Notes under the pieces: generated by a model | What the model was told of the DNA's origin: nothing | Databases searched by the model: none | What the model saw: only the letters and a program-made list of their open reading frames with translations | Position numbers and translations under genes: made by a program | In this document: one piece after another, positions 41,415 to 58,840 of the stretch | Layout of the letters: the number at the start of each line of letters is the position of its first letter | Position numbering within the stretch: position 1 is the stretch's first letter | Origin: Acidimicrobiaceae bacterium | GTDB lineage: Bacteria; Actinomycetota; Acidimicrobiia; Acidimicrobiales; RAAP-2 | Assembly: GCA_003164095.1 (NCBI GenBank) | Contig: PLRX01000154.1 | Span: forward strand, 1-64,000 | Length of the DNA stretch: 64,000 bases | Direction: 5' to 3'

Positions 41415-41807
41415 TCAGCTGAGGAGCTTGGCCTTCTGGGCCTCGAACTCGGCGTCGGTGATGGCACCGCTCTGCTTCAGGTCGGCCAGCTTGGACAGCT
41501 GGTCGACGTTGCTGGCGCCACCGGCGGTCTGCTTGACGTAGCTGTCGAACGCCTCCTGCTGCTGCTTGGCCGCCTGCTCGGCGCGCTCGTGCATCTTGCC
41601 GCCGCGGGCGATGAGGTACACGAGGATGCCGAGGAACGGCAGGATGATGACGAACAGCACCCAGAGTGCCTTCACGCCACCACTCATGTCATGGCTGCGG
41701 AAGATGTCGCCGAAGATGATGACGAGCAGCCAGAACCAGATGAGGAAGACGAAGATGCCGAGCATGGTGCCGAACAGGTCGGCTAGGGGATAGGTGTACG
41801 CAAGCAT
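41415..41807 (-). CDS. PLDc_N/SHOCT small membrane protein, copy 1
   Basis: The 130-residue protein has two transmembrane helices (about residues 9-32 and 45-66), the PLDc_N-like motif S-G-G-V-K-A-L-W-V-L-F-V-I-I-L-P-F-L-G, then a cytoplasmic helix and a C-terminal SHOCT motif (L-S-K-L-A-D-L-K-Q-S-G-A-I-T-D-A-E-F-E-A-Q-K spread over residues about 105-126). SHOCT domains are oligomerisation motifs. ATG at 41807 is preferred to an upstream in-frame ATG because AAGGAGA precedes it. A close paralogue is at 44809-45201. Function unknown; it may organise or regulate the transporters it flanks. Confidence 0.8.
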   Translation of the reverse strand: MLAYTYPLADLFGTMLGIFVFLIWFWLLVIIFGDIFRSHDMSGGVKALWVLFVIILPFLGILVYLIARGGKMHERAEQAAKQQQEAFDSYVKQTAGGASNVDQLSKLADLKQSGAITDAEFEAQKAKLLS

Positions 41808-41842
41808 GAGAGGTTCTCCTTGGAGGTTGTTGATCACCTGAC

Positions 41843-44752: not shown

Positions 44753-44808
44753 GAGTGCTGCTGCCGGACCCCGTGCAGCGTTCAAGACCGCGTAAGGAGT
44801 ACCGCCGC

Positions 44809-45201
44809 ATGCTCGCCTACAACTACCCGATCCTCGATCTCATTTGGACGATGTTCATGTTCTTCGTGTTCGTCCTCTGGATCTGGCTGCTCATCGCCGT
44901 GTTCATGGACGTCTTCCGGAGCCATGACCTGAGCGGTGGCGTCAAGGCCCTGTGGGTGCTCTTCATCATCATCCTGCCGTTCCTCGGCGTGCTGATCTAC
45001 CTCATCGCCCGTGGCGGCAAGATGCACGAGCGCGCCGCCGAGCAGGCGGTCCAGCAGCAGAAGGCCTTCGACACCTACGTCAAGCAGGCCGCAGGTTCGG
45101 GCAGCACGGCCGACGACCTGGCCAAGCTGGCCGACCTCAAGCAGAAGGGCGTGATCAGCGAGGCCGAGTTCGAGGCCCAGAAGGCGAAGATTCTCGCCTG
45201 A
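44809..45201 (+). CDS. PLDc_N/SHOCT small membrane protein, copy 2
   Basis: The 130-residue protein is a paralogue of 41415-41807: the same start M-L-A-Y-x-Y-P, two transmembrane helices, R-S-H-D-L-S-G-G-V-K-A-L-W-V-L-F, Y-L-I-A-R-G-G-K-M-H-E-R-A, and the C-terminal SHOCT motif ending E-F-E-A-Q-K-A-K-I-L-A. Identical length and opposite orientation suggest an old duplication that enclosed the channel genes. AAGGAG lies nine bases before ATG at 44809. A strong terminator hairpin follows. Confidence 0.8.
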   Translation: MLAYNYPILDLIWTMFMFFVFVLWIWLLIAVFMDVFRSHDLSGGVKALWVLFIIILPFLGVLIYLIARGGKMHERAAEQAVQQQKAFDTYVKQAAGSGSTADDLAKLADLKQKGVISEAEFEAQKAKILA

Positions 45202-47601: not shown

Positions 47602-50600
47602 TCAGTCCTGGGTCTGCACCGACGTCGGCCCGGCGGTCTCCTGGGCACGGGTGACCGGCCCGTCCGCCCCCGGCACCTGCACGCCGTCCTCGTCCCACCG
47701 GACGATGGAGGCCAGGAACTCGTCGGTTTCCGCCTGGGCAGCCAGCATCCGCTTCTCGGCGCCTGCGGCGAGGATCCGGCCGAGGACCGGGATCTCCCAC
47801 AGCGACTCGGCCCGCAGGATGGACATCACCACCGGCACCAGGTGCTCCGCCGTATCGAAGACGACGTAGCGGGGGAGCCACTCCGGCTCGTACTTGGCGT
47901 TGAACTTCCACAGCGACTCGATCTGGGCGAAGTTGGACAGCCGCTTGAGGAACCAGCGCTCGGCACGCTGCACGGTGCCGTCGCCCTTCTCGCCGGCCAG
48001 CGTGGAGCGCATGGCTGCGAAGTTGAGGCTGAGCCCCTCGAAGCCGCCTGCGGCCATGTGCTCGATGGTCGAGCAGAGGGCGAAGTCGAGCAACCCGTTC
48101 GGATGGTCGCCCGGGTCGCGTCGCATGAGGTCGAGGGAGTAGCCGTTGATGCCGGTCGACGGCACGAACTGGCACATGGCGGCGGCCTTGCCCTCGGGGG
48201 TGCGCACCACGGTCAGCAGGAGCCCGGTGTCGCGCGGGTCGAAGACCCGACCCAGCATCATCGAGAACCCCCGCTCGTGCTCTCCCTGGCGCGACAGGCG
48301 CATGAGATCGGTCAGCTCGTCGATGAGGGACGGGTCGATGTGGGACGGGTCGTGGAACGTGACGGTGTAGCCGTACTTCTTGATGCGGTTGTGGGCCTGT
48401 CGGAGCCCCTTCATGTGCTTGCCCGCCAAGCTGAACTCCTGCACCCGCACCACGGCCTCGTCGCCGAGGTAGATGTTGTGCATGCCCGAGTCGCGGTAGG
48501 TGGGGAGCCAGTCCTCGCCCGCTCCCATCACCGCAGTGGTCCACCCGTGTGCGTCGGCGAAGGCACGGAAGGCGCCCCACACCTGCTCGCGCTCGTTGCG
48601 GGGGCCGATGGGATCGGGGGAGATGAGACACACACCCCCGTAGACGGCGTAGGCCACGAGGCTGTCGCGGTGGAAGAACCACTTCTTGTCGGACCGCAGG
48701 GCGAAGTAGTCGAGTGTGGACGAGCCGTGACGGCGCACGATGTCGCGGGCCCGGAACTCGGCCGCCCGCCCCGAGCCCAGTCGGCGGTCGACGACCGGGC
48801 GGGTGAGCAGGAAGAGGGTGATGGCGGCCAGGCTCAGCCCGATGGCGAGCAGGGCCGGGGTGATGAAGCGGTCCGGCCGTTCCGGGAGGTCGATCGTGGT
48901 GATCCCGACGAACCGCTCGGACACGGCCCAGAACGTCGTCCACCACGGCAGCACGTCATGCGGGTGGTGGCGGATGTGGCTGAACAGCTCGAGCGACACG
49001 GTGGCGACGACGGCCACCCCCAGGGCCACCCCGGCCAGGGTGAAGAGGGCGGAGCGGACCGATGTGGCGTCGGAGGCGGCCTGGAACTCCTTGCGGTTGA
49101 CCACCAGGAACGTCAGCACCAGCCCGGCGATGAGCGACTCCTCGATGTCGGCCCCGGCCACGAGGTGGAGGAGGATGGTGCCGGCCAGGAGCACGACGGC
49201 CACCCGCCAGGCGCGGCGCTGACCCCGCAGGACGCCGCGACCGAGGGCGATGAGGGCCAGGCCGGCCAGGGCCACGAGTGCGCCGGCGGCCACGCTCGCC
49301 CGGAGGGGCAGGTACTCCTCGACGGCGTGGAGGCGGCCGCGCAGTGGCGGCGTGATGGAGTCGAGGAGGTCGATGATCCCGGTCACGAGGATGGCGCCTG
49401 CACCCCACCGGCGGACGCGTCGGGTTCGGCGATGGGCCTGGCGGAGATCGGGCGCCGGCGGCCACGACTCGCCTACCGGGTAGGAGGCGACCAGTGACGG
49501 GTGGAGCGAGCCCCCGACCCGACGCCGGGTGACCAACCGTTCGAGACGGCTGGGGGACGGGAGCTCGTTGTGGGCCAGGAGCAGGCGGACGTGGAGCTCT
49601 GCCCCGGACTCGATCTCCACCCAGCTCACCCACTGGCTGTGCAGGAACACGGGCGGCAGGCCGAGCCGGCCGCGGTGCTCGGCCACCACCTCGGCGGTGG
49701 CGCCGACGTTGGCGTAGAACCCGGTGCCCAGGTTGGTGAGCTCGGACCGGAAGGTGGCCGCCGTGATCAGCCCGGCGTAGCCCTGCGCCACCACCCGCCG
49801 CGCGTCGTCGCGCGCGGTGTCGTTGGCGCCGGCCTCGGTGCGCACCTCCTTGAGGGCGCCGCCGCCGAGGATCGACCACATCCTGCGGCTGAGCAGTCCG
49901 AGCACGACGGCCATGACGGCGAGGAGCACGACCGCGACGCCGAGGGCCACGACGAGCTGGTCGTTGAGGTCGGCGGAGTGTGCGTGGCGCACCACCCGGG
50001 CCGGCAGGCCTGCACCGATGTGGCTGAGCACCCACGGGGTGACGGCCACCCGCAGCAGTATGGCCACGGCGAACGGCACCAGCAGCCACCAGGCGTAGCG
50101 GCCGAAGCGTCGGTAGAGGGTGCGTGACACCACGAAGCGGGTCAGGCTCGACGGGTCGCTCAGCTGATCGGCCCCGTCGAGCCACGGCGCGTCCTCGGGT
50201 GACTCCTGGGCCACGGACCGCCAGTGCCGGCCGGCGGTCCGGCCCACGCCCGGCTTGGCGTCCGCCGTCGGCTCGTCGTCCGTTGCGTCGCCGTAGACGT
50301 GCACGCCGGGCTCGACACGGACCACCCGGAGGCCGGTGCCGGTCTGGACGTGGAGATCGACGGCGCCGAGGTGCTCGACGCCGGCGGCCGCCAACGTGGC
50401 CACTACGTCGGACGAGCCGGGGTCCACCCGGGGTCCCGCGGCGATGGACTCGGGCTCGTGGGTGCCCCGTTGGCGGAGGATCCGACGCTCGTCCTCCTGC
50501 AGGAACCGGAGGAAGGCGAGGGCCAGTGCCGGGTGGGCGTCGATGGCACGGCCCGCTGCGCCCAGCGGGTCGTCGCAACCCGTCAGGTCGAAGAGGTTGC

Positions 50601-50847
50601 CGGCGATGATGAGGATGCCCGGTCCGTCCCACGTGTCGAGGGCCTGGGCCAGCTCACCCGTCAGGGCCAGGCTCGAGGGCGTGGCCTCGGGGGTGAGCAG
50701 AAGATCGCTGACGACCATGATGCGGCGTCCGAGGGGCACGTGCACCCGTGTGCCGCCGGGGTCAGGGGTGAAGGTGTCGGGCTGCGCGACGACGACGGGA
50801 GCCGAAGGGGCCACCGCCGGGGCCTCGATGTCGGTGGTCGCGGTCAC
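47602..50847 (-). CDS. degenerate metallophosphoesterase fused to an MprF-like DUF2156 membrane protein
   Basis: This 1081-residue fusion has three parts. Residues about 40-230 have a metallophosphoesterase layout with S-D48-L-L, G83-N-L-F-D87 and G-T-H130-E131, where active enzymes have D-x-H, G-D-x-x-D and G-N-H-D/E. Thus His50, Asp84 and Asn129 equivalents are replaced while Asp48, Asp87 and His130 remain. Residues about 240-700 hold seven or more transmembrane helices with a cytoplasmic loop. Residues about 705-1035 are the DUF2156/LPG-synthase C-terminal domain ([14 protein letters not shown]), which in MprF transfers amino acids from tRNA to phosphatidylglycerol. A role in lipid modification is likely but unproven; no lysyl-tRNA synthetase domain is present. 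Confidence 0.8.
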
Positions 50848-50883: not shown

Positions 50884-50995
50884 GAGGCGGTTGAGCCACC
50901 GTCCGCACGGCCGGGACCTGGGACGACACATGTCCCCGGTATCGGCAGCTGGCGCGCCGGACGAAGTCCGGACGGTCCGCAGCCAAGGGGGAACA

Positions 50996-53005
50996 GTGTC
51001 CGAAGCACCCAGGAACGAGCCGACGATCGAGGACTACTTCACCGAGGAGCGGGTGTTTCCCCCGCCGGAGGGCTTCCGGGAGCGGGCCGTTGTCACCGAC
51101 CCCGCCGTCTACGACGAGGCCGCCTCGCTCGGCCCCGACTTCTGGGCACAGCAGGCCGGCGCACTCGACTGGTTCCGCCCGTGGGACACCGTGCTCAGCT
51201 GGGACCTGCCGTTCGCCCGCTGGTTCGACGGCGGCACGCTGAACGTCTCGTACAACTGCCTGGACCGGCACGTGGCCGCCGGCCGGGGCGACAAGGTGGC
51301 GTTCCACTGGGAGGGCGAGCCGGGGGACACCCGCACCATCAGCTACGCCGACCTGCTCCTCGAGGTGTGCCGGTTCGCCAACGTGCTGAAGGGCCTCGGC
51401 GTGGGTCGTGGCGACCGGGTGGCCGTCTACATGCCGATGGTGCCCGAGCTGGCCGTCACCATGCTGGCCTGCACCCGGATCGGGGCGGTCCACTCGGTCG
51501 TCTTCGGCGGCTTCTCCTCGGACGCCCTGCGCGACCGGATCCTGGACGCCGAGGCCAAGGTCGTGGTGACGGCGGACGGCGGCTGGCGACGCGGCCAGGG
51601 TGTCGGCCTGAAGGGCAACGTCGACGTCGCCGTGGCCGAGACCTCGTGCGTCGACCACGTCGTGGTCGTGGAGCGGACGGGCGCCGACACGGTGGGCGGT
51701 CCGGTCGCCATGACGGAGGGCAGGGACCACTGGTGGCACGAGCTCATGACGGGCGAGGACCCGGCTGCCGGCGGTGCCCCGGACGACGCGTGCCAGCCCG
51801 AGCACATGGACGCCGAGGACCTGCTGTTCATCCTCTACACCTCGGGCACCACGGCCGCACCCAAGGGCATCATGCATACGACGGGCGGCTACCTGACCCA
51901 GGTGGCCTACACCCACCGGGTGGTGTTCGACCTGCACCCCGACGAGGACGTCTACTGGGCCGCCGCCGACATCGGCTGGGTGACCGGACACAGCTACATC
52001 GTCTACGGGCCGCTGGCGAACGGTGCGACGTCGGTGATGTACGAGGGCACGCCCGACGCGCCCGGCCGGGACCGCTGGTGGTCGATCGTCGAGCGCTACG
52101 GCGTGACCATCCTCTACTGCGCCCCGACCGCCATCCGGACGTTCATGAAGTGGGGGGCCGACGAGCCGGCCAAGCACGACCTGTCGAGCCTGCGCCTGCT
52201 CGGGTCGGTGGGCGAGCCCATCAACCCTGAGGCATGGATGTGGTACGCCGAGCACATCGGCGGGGGCAACTGTCCGGTGGTGGACACGTGGTGGCAGACC
52301 GAGACGGGGGCGATCATGATCGCCCCGCTGCCCGGCATCACGACCACGAAGCCGGGCTCGGCCACCTTCCCGCTGCCCGGGATCGGGGTCGAGGTGGTCG
52401 ACGAGGAAGGTCACGCCATCGAGCACGGCGGCGGCTACCTCACCCTGACGACCCCGTGGCCGGCGATGCTGCGCGGCATCTACGGCGATCCGGAGCGCTA
52501 CCGGGACACCTACTGGAGCCGCTTCGACGGCCGCTACTTCGCGGGCGACGGCGCCAAGATCGACGACGACGGCTACCTGTGGCTGCTCGGCCGGGTGGAC
52601 GACGTCATGAACGTGTCCGGACACCGCATCTCCACCACCGAGGTCGAGTCGGCACTCGTCGACCACTACCTGGTGGCCGAGTCCGCCGTGGTGGGGGCGG
52701 TCGACCCGACGACGGGTCAGGCCATCGTGGCCTTCGTCACGCTGGTGGCCGACGCCGGCGAGGCCAACGACGAGCGGGGCCAGGAACTCCGTGCCCACGT
52801 GGCCAGCAAGATCGGCCCGATCGCCCGCCCGAAGACGGTGATCTTCACCGACGAGCTCCCGAAGACCCGGAGCGGCAAGATCATGCGCCGCCTGTTGCGC
52901 GACGTCGCCGAGGGACGCGTCCTGGGCGACACGACGACCCTGGCCGACCCGGCGGTGGTGGAGGAGATCCGGCGGCTGTCGGCCACCTCGCCGGGCGAGG
53001 AGTAG
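50996..53005 (+). CDS. acsA: acetyl-CoA synthetase
   Basis: The 669-residue adenylate-forming enzyme activates acetate to acetyl-CoA through acetyl-AMP. Motifs: [10 protein letters not shown] near residue 177, the P-loop [18 protein letters not shown], the [11 protein letters not shown] hinge and the acetylatable lysine in [11 protein letters not shown] near the C-terminus. GTG at 50996 is chosen because AAGGGGG lies just upstream; an in-frame ATG at 50930 would add 22 residues. A HAD phosphatase gene follows four bases after the stop. Lysine acetylation control is a family trait, not shown here. Confidence 0.96.
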
Positions 53006-53009
53006 CGGC

Positions 53010-53498
53010 GTGGGGGATCCGGGCAACTGGGCCTGGCGCAACGGGAGGATCGATCAGCCGGGTGAGGCGGTGGTCTTCGACATGGACGGTGTCCTGTCCG
53101 ATGCCGTCGGTCGCCAGCACTTCATCGAGCAGGGCCGGCGCAACTGGGACGCCTTCTTCGACGCCTGCGGCGAGGACGCCGTCATCGGCGAGCTGGCCCG
53201 GGTGCTCGAGCTCCTCGACCCGAAGCTCCAGATCATCCTGCTGACCGGCCGGCCGATGCGGGTGCAGCCCCAGACGCTGGCCTGGCTCGAGCGCTACGAC
53301 CTGCGGTGGGACCTGCTGGTGATGCGGGCGCGGGGCGACTACTCCCAGGTGACCTGGTACAAGCGCGACTCGGTCGACGAGCTCCGCCACTTCGGGTTCG
53401 AACTCCGGTTGGCCTTCGAGGACGACCCCAACAATTTCGCCATGTTCCACGCCATGGGCATCCCCTGCGTGTACATCCACTCCGGCTACTACGAGTAG
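53010..53498 (+). CDS. HAD-superfamily phosphatase-like protein
   Basis: The 162-residue protein has HAD motif I at F-D24-M-D26-G-V-L-S, motif II T-G-R near residue 78, a lysine in Y-K-R-D and motif IV E-D-D-P-N-N. It has no large cap, so it resembles the polynucleotide-kinase 3'-phosphatase or LNS2-like HAD group, which act on nucleotides or nucleic acid ends. Substrate unknown. GTG start just after acsA, so probably cotranscribed. Its end overlaps the end of lnt (convergent) by ten bases. Confidence 0.8.
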   Translation: MGDPGNWAWRNGRIDQPGEAVVFDMDGVLSDAVGRQHFIEQGRRNWDAFFDACGEDAVIGELARVLELLDPKLQIILLTGRPMRVQPQTLAWLERYDLRWDLLVMRARGDYSQVTWYKRDSVDELRHFGFELRLAFEDDPNNFAMFHAMGIPCVYIHSGYYE

Positions 53499-55237
53499 GA
53501 CGCTCCGTCGGTCGGACCGTGCGCACCGGTCGGACGCCTGGGCCGTACGGCCAGCCACCAGCCGACGAGCAGGGCCGCGACGGACGCGACCAGCACGGGC
53601 GCGTCGCCGAAGCGCACGTAGACCGTCCATCCGTCCCGGAGGCCGAGCGTGGCGGGCACGATCTGGCGGACGCCGAGCACCGAGCGCTCCACCAGCACCC
53701 CTCGGTGGGTGATCCAGGCGGAGTACCCCGTTGGCGCCGCCTGCAGCAGGTCCCGGCCCTGCTGGACGGCCTGGACCTCACTCGCCGCGATCTCCTGGGT
53801 CGGGATCTGTGCCGAGCCGTACGACGAGGTGTTGGTGGGCACGATCAGCACCTGGGCCCCGGCCCGTACCGACGAGCGACCCCGGTCGGCGTAGAAGACC
53901 TCGTAGGAGATCATCGTCCCGAGCCGGCCGGCCGGCGTCGTGAGCATGCCCGACCCGGTGCCGGGCACGGCATCGAGCGGCACCGCCGACAGGTCGCCGA
54001 GATGTGCGAAGAACGAGCGGTAGGGGACGTACTCCCCGAAGGGGACCCGGTGCACCTTCTCGTACCGGTCGACGACGGCACCGTCGGGACCGAAGGCGAC
54101 CACCTCGTTCCTGAACGCGGTCGTCGACACCGTCTCGGTGACGCCGACCACCAGCGTCGCGTGCAGGGCGATGGCCAGGCGGGACAGCGCACCCTGTTCG
54201 GGATCGTCGGCCAGCGGCTGGTCGAGGGAGACCACGTCCTCGGGCCACAGCACCAGCGCCGGGGGGTCGGTCCCCTGGTGGGGGAGCAACCGGTCGGTGG
54301 CGGCCACCGCGGCGTGGAGCACGGTGGCCGGGTCGACCTGGGACTTCCGGAAGCCCCGTACCCCGCCACCCTGCACGGCCGCTGCGGTCACCCGCCGGAC
54401 CACCGGTCCGCCGTCGGCCGCGTGGTCGGCAATGGCTGCGGTGCCCGTCAGGGCCACGAGTGCCACGGCGCCGGTGACGGCCAACGACCCGAGGCCGACC
54501 ACGGCACGCCGCCAGACGGCCGGCCGGTCGGGCTCCGGGTGGAGCCGGTCGAACTCGATCACCCGGCGGTGGCTGCGCACCGCCCGGACACCGGCGAGGC
54601 AGAGCGCGCCCGTCGCCACCCCGCCCGCGTAGACGGCGGCGGTCAGCCCCAGCGGGCCGCCCAGCCGTGCCACGCCGAGCACGGGCCCGCCGGCCTGCCC
54701 GAGGAACACGCCGCCGATGGGGAGGCCGCCGAAGGGCCACGTCTGGCGGACGGCCTCGGCCAGGGTGAGGGCCGCCGGGAAGGCCAGGGCACGGGCCACC
54801 ACCGGCCCCCGTGGCACCGCCAGGCACGCCACCCCCATGAACAGCGCCTCGGCGAGGATGAGCACGACCGCGCCGGCCAGGGTGAAGGCCCGGGCGAACA
54901 TGAGCCCCGGCACGTAGCAGCCGAGGCCGGCCAGCCACCCGGCCCAGAGCCGGGTCCGTGGCCGGAGCCCGCCGAGCCGCCACCACAGCAGGCCGGCGGC
55001 CGGGAACGCCAGGGCCCAGAAGCCCCACGGGGGGAGCGACAGTGCGAGCCCGACCCCGGACGCCACCGCCGGCAGCGCCACGGCGCTCCGACGCGGGGTG
55101 ACCCGGTCCGGGTCGGTGCGTGACATGCGGAGTTTCGACGGGCGCCACGGCACGGTGTCGTCGGTCGCCGCCTCCGGTGGGGCTCCCATCGGAGGCGGCG
55201 GGGCGAGGGTCGACATGCCCTCCGGCCCCGTGGTCAT
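53489..55237 (-). CDS. lnt: apolipoprotein N-acyltransferase, catalytic Cys replaced by Ser
   Basis: The 582-residue protein has an N-terminal set of six or more transmembrane helices and a C-terminal nitrilase domain. Catalytic Glu (L-W-P-E-D) and Lys (Y-E-K-V-H-R-V-P-F-G-E-Y-V-P) are present. The nucleophile motif reads M-I-S-Y-E-V-F-Y, with serine where the family has cysteine (C-Y-E). Lnt adds the third acyl chain to lipoproteins after Lgt and LspA. The start overlaps the hemG stop (ATGA). The last 25 residues are a Pro/Gly-rich cytoplasmic tail. Confidence 0.88.
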   Translation of the reverse strand: MTTGPEGMSTLAPPPPMGAPPEAATDDTVPWRPSKLRMSRTDPDRVTPRRSAVALPAVASGVGLALSLPPWGFWALAFPAAGLLWWRLGGLRPRTRLWAGWLAGLGCYVPGLMFARAFTLAGAVVLILAEALFMGVACLAVPRGPVVARALAFPAALTLAEAVRQTWPFGGLPIGGVFLGQAGGPVLGVARLGGPLGLTAAVYAGGVATGALCLAGVRAVRSHRRVIEFDRLHPEPDRPAVWRRAVVGLGSLAVTGAVALVALTGTAAIADHAADGGPVVRRVTAAAVQGGGVRGFRKSQVDPATVLHAAVAATDRLLPHQGTDPPALVLWPEDVVSLDQPLADDPEQGALSRLAIALHATLVVGVTETVSTTAFRNEVVAFGPDGAVVDRYEKVHRVPFGEYVPYRSFFAHLGDLSAVPLDAVPGTGSGMLTTPAGRLGTMISYEVFYADRGRSSVRAGAQVLIVPTNTSSYGSAQIPTQEIAASEVQAVQQGRDLLQAAPTGYSAWITHRGVLVERSVLGVRQIVPATLGLRDGWTVYVRFGDAPVLVASVAALLVGWWLAVRPRRPTGAHGPTDGASYS

Positions 55238-56781
55238 CGACCGGTGCGGGCCGGTGCGGCTCCGTCGAGCGACCGCAGCACGGCCCGAGCGGCCGTGCGG
55301 CCGCTGCCGACCACCGCCGGGATCCCCACCCCGCGGTACGCGCTCCCGGCCACCGCCACGGCGGGCAGCTTGGCCACCGCCTGCTCGATCGTCGACGTCC
55401 GCGTCAGGTGCCCGACCTTGTACTGGGGGAACGCCCCGTCCCAGCGGGTGACCATCGACTCGCGGGGCGCCGCCGCCACGTCCAGGACGGCCGACAGTTC
55501 GGCCACGACAGCTGCGGTCAGCTCGTCGTCGTCAAGCGAGTCGGGGCGGTTGTCGCCGAGCCGGCCGACCGACAGCCGGATCAGCTCGTCGTCGGGACGT
55601 GCCAGGCCCGGCCACTTGCGGCTGAGGTACGTGCACCCGGTGATGAGCGCGGTGCGGCCGGCGACGGTCGAGGTGCGTGGGACGAGGAACCCGGTACCCA
55701 CGAGCTCGCTGCGGATGGCACCGGCCGGCATGGACAGGGTGATGACGGTCACCGACGAGAGCTCGATGTCCGACAGCAGGGACGAGGCCAGCGGGGCGTG
55801 GCCGCTCAGGAGTCCAGCGGCCTGCCCGGCAGGCACGGCGAGGACCACGGCGTCGACGTCCAGGGTTCGGACGGTGTCCGAGGAGCCCTCGGCGTCGGGC
55901 ACGCCGGCGACGTCGCCGGCCAGGCTCAGGCGCCAGGACGGTCCCGTTCCGACCGGCAGGCGGTCCATCGACTCGACGGCCACCCCGGTGTGGAGGGCGA
56001 CGCCCCGCGCTGCCAGGGCGGCGGCCAGCTCGGCGGGCAGGCGGGCGTTGCCGCCGTCGAGCGACCAGAACACGGGAGGTGGCGCCGCACCCGGTCGCGG
56101 GGGCGGTGCCGGCGGGGTCTGTCCGGGTGTCGGCGGTCGTCGGAGGGCGCGGATGAGGCTGCCGGACTGGCGGTCTGCGGCCAGGAGGGGCGGGAAGGTG
56201 GACTCGGCGCTGAGGTCGTCGACCCCTCCGGCGTGGATCCCACCCACCAACGGGTCGACCAGGCGCTCGACCACCTCGTGGCCGAGGCGCGATCCGACGA
56301 TGTCGCCCACCGACCGGTCCGCGGTGGCGCGCGGGTCGCCGCGGTGGGGTGTCACGAGGTCGAGGCCGGCCCGGGCGAGTCCCATCGGGCCGAGGATCCC
56401 GGAGCGGATCATCGGCCACGCCTTGGTCGGCACCCCGAGGTTCACCCCGTCGGGCATCATGCGCAGCCGCCCCCGCACCCACAGCGAGGCACCCGAGGCG
56501 CCGGGTGCGACCAGGGCCCCGGTCAGGCCGAGTTCGTCGCACAGCCGGGTCGCCTCCGGTCGGCGGGCCAGGAAGGCGTCGGCGGCGACGTCGACGATCC
56601 GACCGCAGAACTCCGTGGAGCGGACCTTGCCGCCGGCTCGGGCGCCGGCCTCGAGCACCACGACGCGGGGGACGGCACCATCGTCCCGTCCGGCGACGAG
56701 CTCCCATGCCGCCGACAGGCCGGCCATCCCCCCGCCGACCACGGCCACGACGGGCCCCTTCGGCGCAGGTACGTCGCTCAC
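55234..56781 (-). CDS. hemY: protoporphyrinogen/coproporphyrinogen III oxidase (HemG/HemY type)
   Basis: The 515-residue FAD enzyme begins V-V-A-V-V-G-G-G-M-A-G-L-S-A-A-W-E-L and ends with the flavin-binding R-G-V-G-I-P-A-V-V-G-S-G-R motif of the oxidase family. In actinobacteria this enzyme (CgoX) oxidises coproporphyrinogen III. A Pro-rich insert lies near residues 205-225. It follows hemH with a four-base overlap and precedes lnt with another. Confidence 0.93.
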   Translation of the reverse strand: MSDVPAPKGPVVAVVGGGMAGLSAAWELVAGRDDGAVPRVVVLEAGARAGGKVRSTEFCGRIVDVAADAFLARRPEATRLCDELGLTGALVAPGASGASLWVRGRLRMMPDGVNLGVPTKAWPMIRSGILGPMGLARAGLDLVTPHRGDPRATADRSVGDIVGSRLGHEVVERLVDPLVGGIHAGGVDDLSAESTFPPLLAADRQSGSLIRALRRPPTPGQTPPAPPPRPGAAPPPVFWSLDGGNARLPAELAAALAARGVALHTGVAVESMDRLPVGTGPSWRLSLAGDVAGVPDAEGSSDTVRTLDVDAVVLAVPAGQAAGLLSGHAPLASSLLSDIELSSVTVITLSMPAGAIRSELVGTGFLVPRTSTVAGRTALITGCTYLSRKWPGLARPDDELIRLSVGRLGDNRPDSLDDDELTAAVVAELSAVLDVAAAPRESMVTRWDGAFPQYKVGHLTRTSTIEQAVAKLPAVAVAGSAYRGVGIPAVVGSGRTAARAVLRSLDGAAPARTGR

Positions 56782-57740
56782 GGTCGCCCCGCCGGTCGGT
56801 CGGCGTCGGCGCCGGCCGCGTCGCGGACGACGTCGGCCAGCAGCGCCAGGAACGTCGGGTCGTCATTGAGCGACGTGGTGCGGGCGAAGGCGATCCCGAG
56901 GGAGTCGGCCCGGTGTTGGGCCTCGATGTCGAGGTCGTAGAGGACCTCGAGGTGGTCGGACACGAAGCCCACCGGGCAGACCACCACGGCGGTTGCGCCC
57001 TCTGCCGCCACCCGGTCCATCTCGACGAGGAGGTCGGGGCCGATCCACGGGTCGGCCGTGCGCCCGGCGCTCTGCCACGCCGTGCCCCACGTGACGGTCG
57101 GTTCTGTACCGAGGTCGAGCCGGGCCGCGATGTCGGCTCCGGACTCGGCCACCTGTTCCGGATAGGTGTCGCCCATGGCCACGACCCGGAGGGGGAGACT
57201 GTGCGCGGTGAAGAACACCGCCGTCCTCGTACGGGCCGCCGGGTCGAACCCGTCGAGTGCGGCGCGTGTGCGGGTGGCCAGGAGGTCGGCGAAGCCCTCG
57301 GCCCGGTGCCAGGAGGGGACGACCGTCATGCCGAGCGGCGGCACCGTCGCCGCCGCGGCGGCCTCGGCCCGGGCGAAGTACTCACCGGAGCCCATGGTCG
57401 ACTGGTGGGGGGTCAGGACGACGGCGACGATCCGGTCCACGCCCTCGGCCGACAGGTCGGTCACGGCCTGCTCGATGGTGGGCTCGACATACTTGGTCCC
57501 CAGACGGACCACGAACCGTCCCGGTGCGGCCGCCTCCAGCGCGGCGGCCAGGCCGTCGACCTGGGACCGGGTGCGCGCCGTCAGGGGGGAGGTGCCCCCG
57601 ATCGCCTCGTAGCGTCCGGTGAGCTCGTCGAGGAGCTCGGGTGTCGGAGGCCGCCCGCGGCGGATGCGCGTGTAGAAGGCCTCGATCTCCTCGGGTGTGC
57701 CCGGGGTGCCGTGGGCCATCACGAGCACGCCGATCGTCAC
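56778..57740 (-). CDS. hemH: ferrochelatase (coproporphyrin type likely)
   Basis: The 320-residue protein has V-L-V-M-A-H-G-T-P at the start, R-Y-E-A-I-G-G-T-S-P-L, F-F-T-A-H-S-L-P with the conserved His, and V-C-P-V-G-F-V-S-D-H-L-E with the conserved Glu. It inserts iron into the porphyrin; in the Gram-positive route the substrate is coproporphyrin III (CpfC). GTG at 57740 overlaps the hemE stop. Confidence 0.95.
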   Translation of the reverse strand: MTIGVLVMAHGTPGTPEEIEAFYTRIRRGRPPTPELLDELTGRYEAIGGTSPLTARTRSQVDGLAAALEAAAPGRFVVRLGTKYVEPTIEQAVTDLSAEGVDRIVAVVLTPHQSTMGSGEYFARAEAAAAATVPPLGMTVVPSWHRAEGFADLLATRTRAALDGFDPAARTRTAVFFTAHSLPLRVVAMGDTYPEQVAESGADIAARLDLGTEPTVTWGTAWQSAGRTADPWIGPDLLVEMDRVAAEGATAVVVCPVGFVSDHLEVLYDLDIEAQHRADSLGIAFARTTSLNDDPTFLALLADVVRDAAGADADRPAGRP

Positions 57741-58840
57741 GGCACCGGCTCCACGCCGGCGCGGCCCTCGGCGTGGACGAGCGCCGCCACCTCCTCGAGG
57801 ATGCCAGGGTCGGTCTCGGGCAGGACGCCGTGACCGAGGTTGAAGACGTGCCCGGGCGCGGTGCCGGCCAGCCCCAGCACCTCCCGGGTCTCGGCGGCGG
57901 CCACGTCCCAACTGCCGAGGCACATGGCCGGGTCGAGGTTGCCCTGGACGGCGGTGCCCGGCCCCACGCGCCGGCGGGCCTCGTCGAGCGGTACCCGCCA
58001 GTCGATGCCCACGACCGAGGTGCCGGCCGTGGCCATGAGGGGGAGCAGCTCGCCCGTACCCACACCGAACAGGATGGTGGGCGTGCCCGGGTGGGAGGCC
58101 TCAAGGTCGGCGAAGAGGCGCCGGGTGGCCGGTAGGACGAGCTCCTCGTAGTGCCTCGGGGTGAGGATCCCGGCCCAGCTGTCGAAGACCTGGATGGCCG
58201 AGGCCCCGGCGTCGAGCTGCGACCGCAGCGAGGCAAGTGCCATGTCGGTCAGCCGCTCGACCAGCGCCTGCCAGAGGGCGGGCTCGCTGAGCATGAGGGA
58301 CTTGACCTTGGTGAAGTTCTTCGACGGGCCACCCTCGACCAGGTAGCTGGCGACGGTGAAGGGACCGCCCGCGAATCCGATGAGGGGCACGTCGAGCGTT
58401 GCCGCAAGGAGTCGCACGGCCTCCACGACGTACGGGGTGTCGGTCTCGGGCTCGAGTGGACGGAGGCGTTCGAGGTCGGCGGCCGACCGGAACGGCTCGG
58501 ACACCACGGGCCCCGTGCCGGGTGCGACGTCGACGCCGAATCCCACCGCCGCGGCCGGTACGACGATGTCACTGAAGAAGATGGCGGCGTCGGTGCCGTA
58601 CCGGTCGACAGGCTGACAGGTGAGCTCGGCAACCAGCTCGGGCTGGTGGATGGCGTCCAGGATGCTTCCGGGGCCGCGGGCCGCCCGGTATTCCGGCAGC
58701 GACCGCCCGGCCTGGCGCATGAACCAGACCGGCACGTGGGGGACGGACTGCCCACGGCAGGCCCGCATGAACGGGGCGTCGTCGAAGCGGTCGGGCGCAT
58801 GGGCGGCCCCGCCGGGCGCACGGGGCACAGCGGTGGACAT
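57737..58840 (-). CDS. hemE: uroporphyrinogen decarboxylase
   Basis: The 367-residue enzyme shows P-V-W-F-M-R-Q-A-G-R-S-L-P-E-Y-R near residue 37, G-F-A-G-G-P-F-T-V-A-S-Y, and F-N-L-G-H-G-V-L-P-E near the C-terminus. It decarboxylates uroporphyrinogen III to coproporphyrinogen III. It heads the second heme operon, hemE-hemH-hemY-lnt. ATG at 58840 with TAGACT six bases upstream implies a leaderless mRNA. Confidence 0.96.
   Translation of the reverse strand: MSTAVPRAPGGAAHAPDRFDDAPFMRACRGQSVPHVPVWFMRQAGRSLPEYRAARGPGSILDAIHQPELVAELTCQPVDRYGTDAAIFFSDIVVPAAAVGFGVDVAPGTGPVVSEPFRSAADLERLRPLEPETDTPYVVEAVRLLAATLDVPLIGFAGGPFTVASYLVEGGPSKNFTKVKSLMLSEPALWQALVERLTDMALASLRSQLDAGASAIQVFDSWAGILTPRHYEELVLPATRRLFADLEASHPGTPTILFGVGTGELLPLMATAGTSVVGIDWRVPLDEARRRVGPGTAVQGNLDPAMCLGSWDVAAAETREVLGLAGTAPGHVFNLGHGVLPETDPGILEEVAALVHAEGRAGVEPVP

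Follow-up and report, generated by a model that had tools for sequence, protein, structure and literature searches.

A predicted aminoacyl-lipid synthase of Acidimicrobiales with an N-terminal phosphoesterase fold that has lost its metal site

In the window, i.e., the entire 64,000-nucleotide stretch of DNA analyzed from a soil bacterium of the Acidimicrobiaceae, a single gene encodes an Acidimicrobiales aminoacyl-lipid synthase of the MprF/LysX type that carries an N-terminal calcineurin-type phosphoesterase fold. One of the seven metal ligands of this fold is left. MprF-type enzymes shape the surface charge of bacteria and their tolerance to antimicrobial peptides, and the N-terminal half of these enzymes is usually a flippase. 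Here, this half is replaced by a module derived from a hydrolase. The family offers a rare, well-sampled case of an enzyme becoming a non-catalytic part of another enzyme, with surviving versions that range from free-standing ones that look active, through fused ones with an intact, a partly degraded or a fully degraded domain, to ones in which the domain is lost. This series makes the conversion from enzyme to non-catalytic partner, as well as the partner's contribution to lipid aminoacylation, open to experiment. The features of the gene are as follows (residue numbers are those of the gene product, referred to below as the query).

47602-50847, minus strand: whole gene (1081-residue open reading frame), pseudo-phosphoesterase joined to MprF-type aminoacyl-lipid synthase
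50128-50748, minus strand: predicted phosphoesterase fold, first part, residues 34-240 (AlphaFold2 model, VIA match to LpxH with Z about 15)
50698-50706, minus strand: D48-L-L, degenerate D-x-H motif in which only D48 is retained
50587-50601, minus strand: G83-N-L-F-D, degenerate GDxxD motif, N84 in place of the ligand Asp
50455-50466, minus strand: G128-T-H-E, degenerate GNHD motif, T129 in place of the ligand Asn, His130 retained
50305-50313, minus strand: E179-P-G, degenerate E-H-G motif, P180 in place of the ligand His
50110-50136, minus strand: F-x2-S-R-x2-Y-R motif directly before the hairpin (conservation)
49843-50127, minus strand: membrane hairpin, residues 241-335, inserted between motifs 4 and 5 (hydropathy and structure model)
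49750-49761, minus strand: A363-A-T-F, degenerate GHTH motif, A364 and F366 in place of the two ligand His
49498-49830, minus strand: phosphoesterase fold, second part, residues 340-450 (predicted structure)
48778-49440, minus strand: six-helix membrane region of the synthase half, residues 470-690, with PF16995 at 474-658 (aligned with MprF from its residue 336)
47797-48777, minus strand: tandem-GNAT aminoacyl-lipid synthase domain, residues 691-1017, core residues intact (Pfam, structure match and core sites)
48118-48135, minus strand: L-D-L-M-R-R synthase motif (D906, M908 and R909 invariant in 54 fused proteins)

Architecture of the fused protein

The initial annotation had described a 1081-residue open reading frame at 47602-50847, in which a phosphoesterase-like domain is fused to an MprF-type synthase, and both the frame and the fusion are borne out, the latter by an LPG_synthase_C match (E 6e-72) and an LpxH-like fold. 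Pfam matches are restricted to the C-terminal half, where LPG_synthase_C covers residues 703-996 and PF16995, a lysyl-tRNA-synthetase-type membrane region, is found upstream. The N-terminal half was left unnamed by every library searched; Pfam gives no phosphoesterase in the query, a Metallophos match is absent from all 72 fused N-termini scanned, and a PDB sequence search with the N-terminal profile returned no credible match. The half is assigned as a phosphoesterase because intact relatives exceed the Pfam Metallophos (PF00149) cut-off (fused L018, E 7e-7; free-standing L153, E 5e-11) and the predicted fold agrees. In L018 the motifs SDLHL, GDILE, GNHD, EHGNNFD and GHTH occur in this order.

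The structure model of query residues 1-476 has a mean pLDDT of 84.8, and the best structural match of the modeled N-terminal half is LpxH (UDP-2,3-diacylglucosamine pyrophosphatase; Z about 15, 181-206 residues, 14-18% identity), which is a calcineurin-type phosphoesterase with the same order of motifs. A Foldseek search with the N-terminal model gave a single match under 0.001, LpxH 5k8k. By these measures (pLDDT 85, LpxH Z 15, PF00149 matches of intact relatives), the modeled domain is a calcineurin-type two-layer phosphoesterase fold. The domain had initially been placed at residues 1-240; residues 40-230 do adopt the phosphoesterase fold in the model, but the true span is about 34-450, as the fold resumes after a two-helix membrane hairpin between metal motifs 4 and 5. 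The query differs from LpxH proper, which has an intact metal site, in its low identity (16-18%), in the loss of six of the seven ligands and in the hairpin, and even its intact relatives differ from LpxH in carrying GNHD. YkuE-like, Tat-dependent polytopic phosphoesterases (PMC5449189) have yet another layout: they contain four membrane helices, the fourth of which is preceded by a twin-arginine motif.

The hydrophobic helices of the hairpin are found by hydropathy at about residues 255-273 and 298-316. The insertion point in the query is presumably the place of the LpxH helical lid. In the motif that precedes the hairpin, fused proteins share S241, R242 and Y245 at a level of 98-99%; in free-standing relatives, these residues are likewise the most frequent (68-100%). 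Because arginines border the hairpin on its phosphoesterase-domain side, the positive-inside rule suggests that this domain faces the cytosol.

An assembly or frame artefact as the source of the fused domain can be ruled out, as many independent orthologs carry the same domain, and chance is excluded because more than 100 orthologs have the same fused layout.

The C-terminal half is that of MprF/LysX synthases (PF09924 and a six-helix part), with the same six-helix region and tandem-GNAT synthase. Membrane helices at 468-681 of the model align with those of MprF, residues 470-1015 match MprF cryo-EM structures (Z 26-30) and residues 687-1017 match isolated synthase domains (Z 29-30). All 19 core sites, defined as sites invariant in MprF/LysX outgroups and in fused proteins with a degenerate phosphoesterase, are kept in the query, and the core is intact or nearly so in other degenerate members. 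The annotation of a multi-helix region followed by a DUF2156 domain stands as regards the synthase, but its helices have to be divided, two belonging to the phosphoesterase hairpin and six to the synthase half. Production of lysyl-PG by MprF requires at least six membrane helices and the synthase domain (PMC8974105), and both are present in the query. The synthase half looks functional and is probably active.

In contrast to MprF and LysX, the query has neither flippase Subdomain 1 nor a lysyl-tRNA synthetase, and its N-terminus is the phosphoesterase fold instead. The flippase half (PF03706) of full-length bifunctional MprF was not found in the query chain by Pfam, and scores against the NCBIfam MprF and LysX models are far below the cut-offs (264 of 600 and 305 of 742 bits, respectively). 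The chain ends after the synthase, which also sets it apart from bifunctional LysX. The query gene is the sole PF09924 gene of the genome. Three PF03706 (MprF flippase-type) genes lie elsewhere in the same genome (G000 contigs C147, C53 and C52; L175-L177), one of them in a 947-residue frame; they are possible separate flippases.

Loss of the metal site after fusion

The ligand set of an active calcineurin-type phosphoesterase (DxH, GDxxD, GNHD, xHG and GHxH) is not present in the query. The three degenerate motifs reported initially, D-L-L for D-x-H, G-N-x-x-D for G-D-x-x-D and G-T-H-E for G-N-H-D, all read as described, but two further lost motifs, E179-P-G and A363-A-T-F, had been overlooked. 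No intact ligand set was found elsewhere in the chain. The early doubt about N-terminal catalysis was thus justified, and with one of seven ligands left phosphoesterase activity is very unlikely.

The same loss is seen across the family. Among the 107 fused proteins of the main set, no ligand is retained in 25, one in 49 and two in 19, i.e., 93 proteins keep at most two; three are retained in seven proteins, four in three, five in one and all seven in three. A later search beyond the main set added L188, a fused protein in which the seven ligands and the synthase core are all intact, as well as L190, which is shorter. All seven ligands are present in each of 20 free-standing relatives.

A tree was built on the synthase half alone and rooted with an MprF/LysX-type outgroup. 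Intact or near-intact fused proteins (L018, L033, L034, L035, L013 and L019) lie near its base, while the query is placed deep among the degenerate ones; with some long branches in the outgroup and unsettled forks at the base, the exact basal branching is unsure. Because near-intact fused proteins are basal and degenerate ones lie above them, fusion came first, followed by stepwise ligand loss. On the unrooted tree, each of the seven ligands requires 1-7 state changes. The domain is wholly absent from two orthologs (L148 and L149), and a third (L150) lacks the domain center and the hairpin. No other copy was found in the L148 and L149 genomes, one of which is only 70% complete.

Pooled over 14 pairs of degenerate relatives, which are not fully independent of each other, the Nei-Gojobori dN/dS is 0.239 (0.219-0.261) for the degenerate phosphoesterase parts, 0.248 for the hairpin, 0.184 for the six-helix region and 0.096 for the synthase. 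The dead phosphoesterase domain is therefore still under purifying selection, where the ratio reveals the constraint rather than its cause.

Possible roles of the retained domain

The explanation most likely to join the computed results (architecture and fold, loss of ligands, sequence of events, purifying selection and an intact synthase core) is one in which the synthase is active and the phosphoesterase module, on the cytosolic side, has a docking or lipid-presenting role. The synthase would join an aminoacyl-tRNA and a membrane lipid, probably phosphatidylglycerol, to yield an aminoacylated lipid on the cytosolic side of the membrane. The ancestor of the N-terminal half would be an LpxH-like phosphoesterase that stood alone, depended on metal, was anchored in the membrane and became fused to the synthase while still active; the metal center would then have been lost stepwise, while the fold, the membrane-interface motif and the hairpin were retained as a non-catalytic module. 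Located where MprF has its flippase half, this module probably docks the synthase on the inner leaflet and helps to present or retain the lipid. With moderate confidence, we consider the pseudo-LpxH module, still active when fused, to have been kept in an active synthase as a part without catalysis of its own, either a scaffold docked at the membrane or an element that handles lipid.

The persistence of S241, R242 and Y245 while the ligands vanish argues for a retained module. Docking is the least supported step of this explanation: MprF has its own six-helix membrane anchor and a second anchor is not obviously needed. The synthase can also dispense with the domain, since L148 and L149 lack it and L150 has lost its center and hairpin. 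The nearest precedent is found in the B-subunits of eukaryotic DNA polymerases, calcineurin-type nuclease subunits that were inactivated and now act as scaffolds (PMC4996933) and that appear among the structural matches of the query. In both cases a scaffold would have arisen from an active phosphoesterase joined to a different enzyme, but the B-subunit is a separate soluble subunit with an OB domain and an unrelated partner; the likeness is an analogy, not kinship.

A different role would be that of a ligand sensor, as proposed initially: the old active-site pocket would still hold a lipid phosphate or a nucleotide, with no metal involved, and exert allosteric control over the synthase. Within the query's clade (20 proteins), D48, L50, N84, D87, E131, P180 and A364 are fixed in all, and His130 and F366 are present in 19, as would suit such a pocket, but these proteins are fairly close relatives (66-83% identity to the query in the rows measured), so that little weight can be given to the fixation. 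When all fused proteins are compared, the residues of the pocket vary freely (the N3 position holds S, T, A, N, D, W, E, L or R), which is not expected for a shared ligand, and some members lack the domain altogether. We regard a sensor as unlikely. Similarly doubtful is the broader proposal of a bifunctional membrane enzyme, fused from lipid phosphoesterase and aminoacyl-lipid synthase, whose first half turned into a pseudoenzyme throughout most of an order and now controls the second half via a lipid or nucleotide bound in the former active site.

The domain could also be a passive relic that is being lost, with selection only preventing misfolding upstream of an important enzyme in the same chain. 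Complete or central loss of the domain about three times (L148, L149 and L150) and its evolution at more than twice the rate of the synthase are consistent with this reading; however, loss is rare although easy, and most orthologs retain the full fold, the hairpin and specific membrane-adjacent polar residues, which makes a relic improbable as well. Continued catalysis, whether with another metal, a single one or none, via D48, D87 and His130, which persist in the query's clade, is hardly credible, because six of the seven ligands are lost, including both GHTH histidines, the sequence list of clade-invariant residues holds no evident new cluster of conserved His, Asp, Glu or Cys, and in LpxG an Asp-to-Ala change in the first motif alone nearly abolishes activity (PMC4807358).

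Relatives and genomic neighborhood

Of 99 genomes sampled from the order, 39 gave a match to the query, a count that includes some distant MprF-type matches. Most of the 80 named loci belong to metagenome genomes of Acidimicrobiales/Acidimicrobiaceae; going by isolate names, these come from peat, permafrost and comparable habitats. An open literature search found no paper on the phosphoesterase-synthase fusion, which does not prove that none exists. Further families of the phylum have fused forms as well (G133, G187 and G281). In two of these (L160 of G187 and L183 of G281) the phosphoesterase metal site is full and the synthase has diverged, with the HPNGL motif lost and 3-4 of the 19 core sites changed. 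Mirror-image decay, i.e., a dead synthase, was considered and set aside in favor of divergence, as the Asp and Arg of LDxxRR are kept; the sequence pattern is possibly one of decay of the synthase half.

The analysis also brought to light a family of two-helix phosphoesterases in Actinomycetota. These free-standing proteins (e.g., L041-L059 and L141), from other families of the phylum, are about 450-500 residues long and are direct sequence relatives of the query, with the same whole-domain profile and hairpin; unlike the query, they keep the seven ligands and have no synthase domain. The four tested all match Metallophos, and none of these four matched an NCBIfam model above a cut-off. A PF09924 gene is absent from seven of nine checked genomes that carry a free-standing phosphoesterase, and in a Rosetta-stone test none of 24 free-standing loci had a PF09924-type gene nearby.

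In five of the free-standing loci (L158, L165, L159, L166 and L169) the phosphoesterase gene adjoins an MGDG-synthase-type glycosyltransferase gene, which could indicate a function in the metabolism of glycolipids or diacylglycerol; two of the five are near-identical relatives, which makes this neighbor-based lipid link weak. A second free-standing group (L153, L155, L156, L161, L164, L166, L172 and L173) adjoins a small conserved gene and a GET3/ArsA-type ATPase, and in several of these loci the next genes are, as we take them from their sequences, pdxS-like and YebC-like.

Next to the fused gene, positions 50927-58840 of the window hold acetyl-CoA synthetase-like, HAD phosphatase, Lnt (apolipoprotein N-acyltransferase) and haem genes. 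This order is kept in many relatives, and these neighbors look like shared chromosome order rather than shared function. On the other side, two paralogous small PLDc_N-SHOCT membrane proteins, encoded on opposite strands (41418-41837, minus; 44755-45198, plus), flank two membrane-protein genes.
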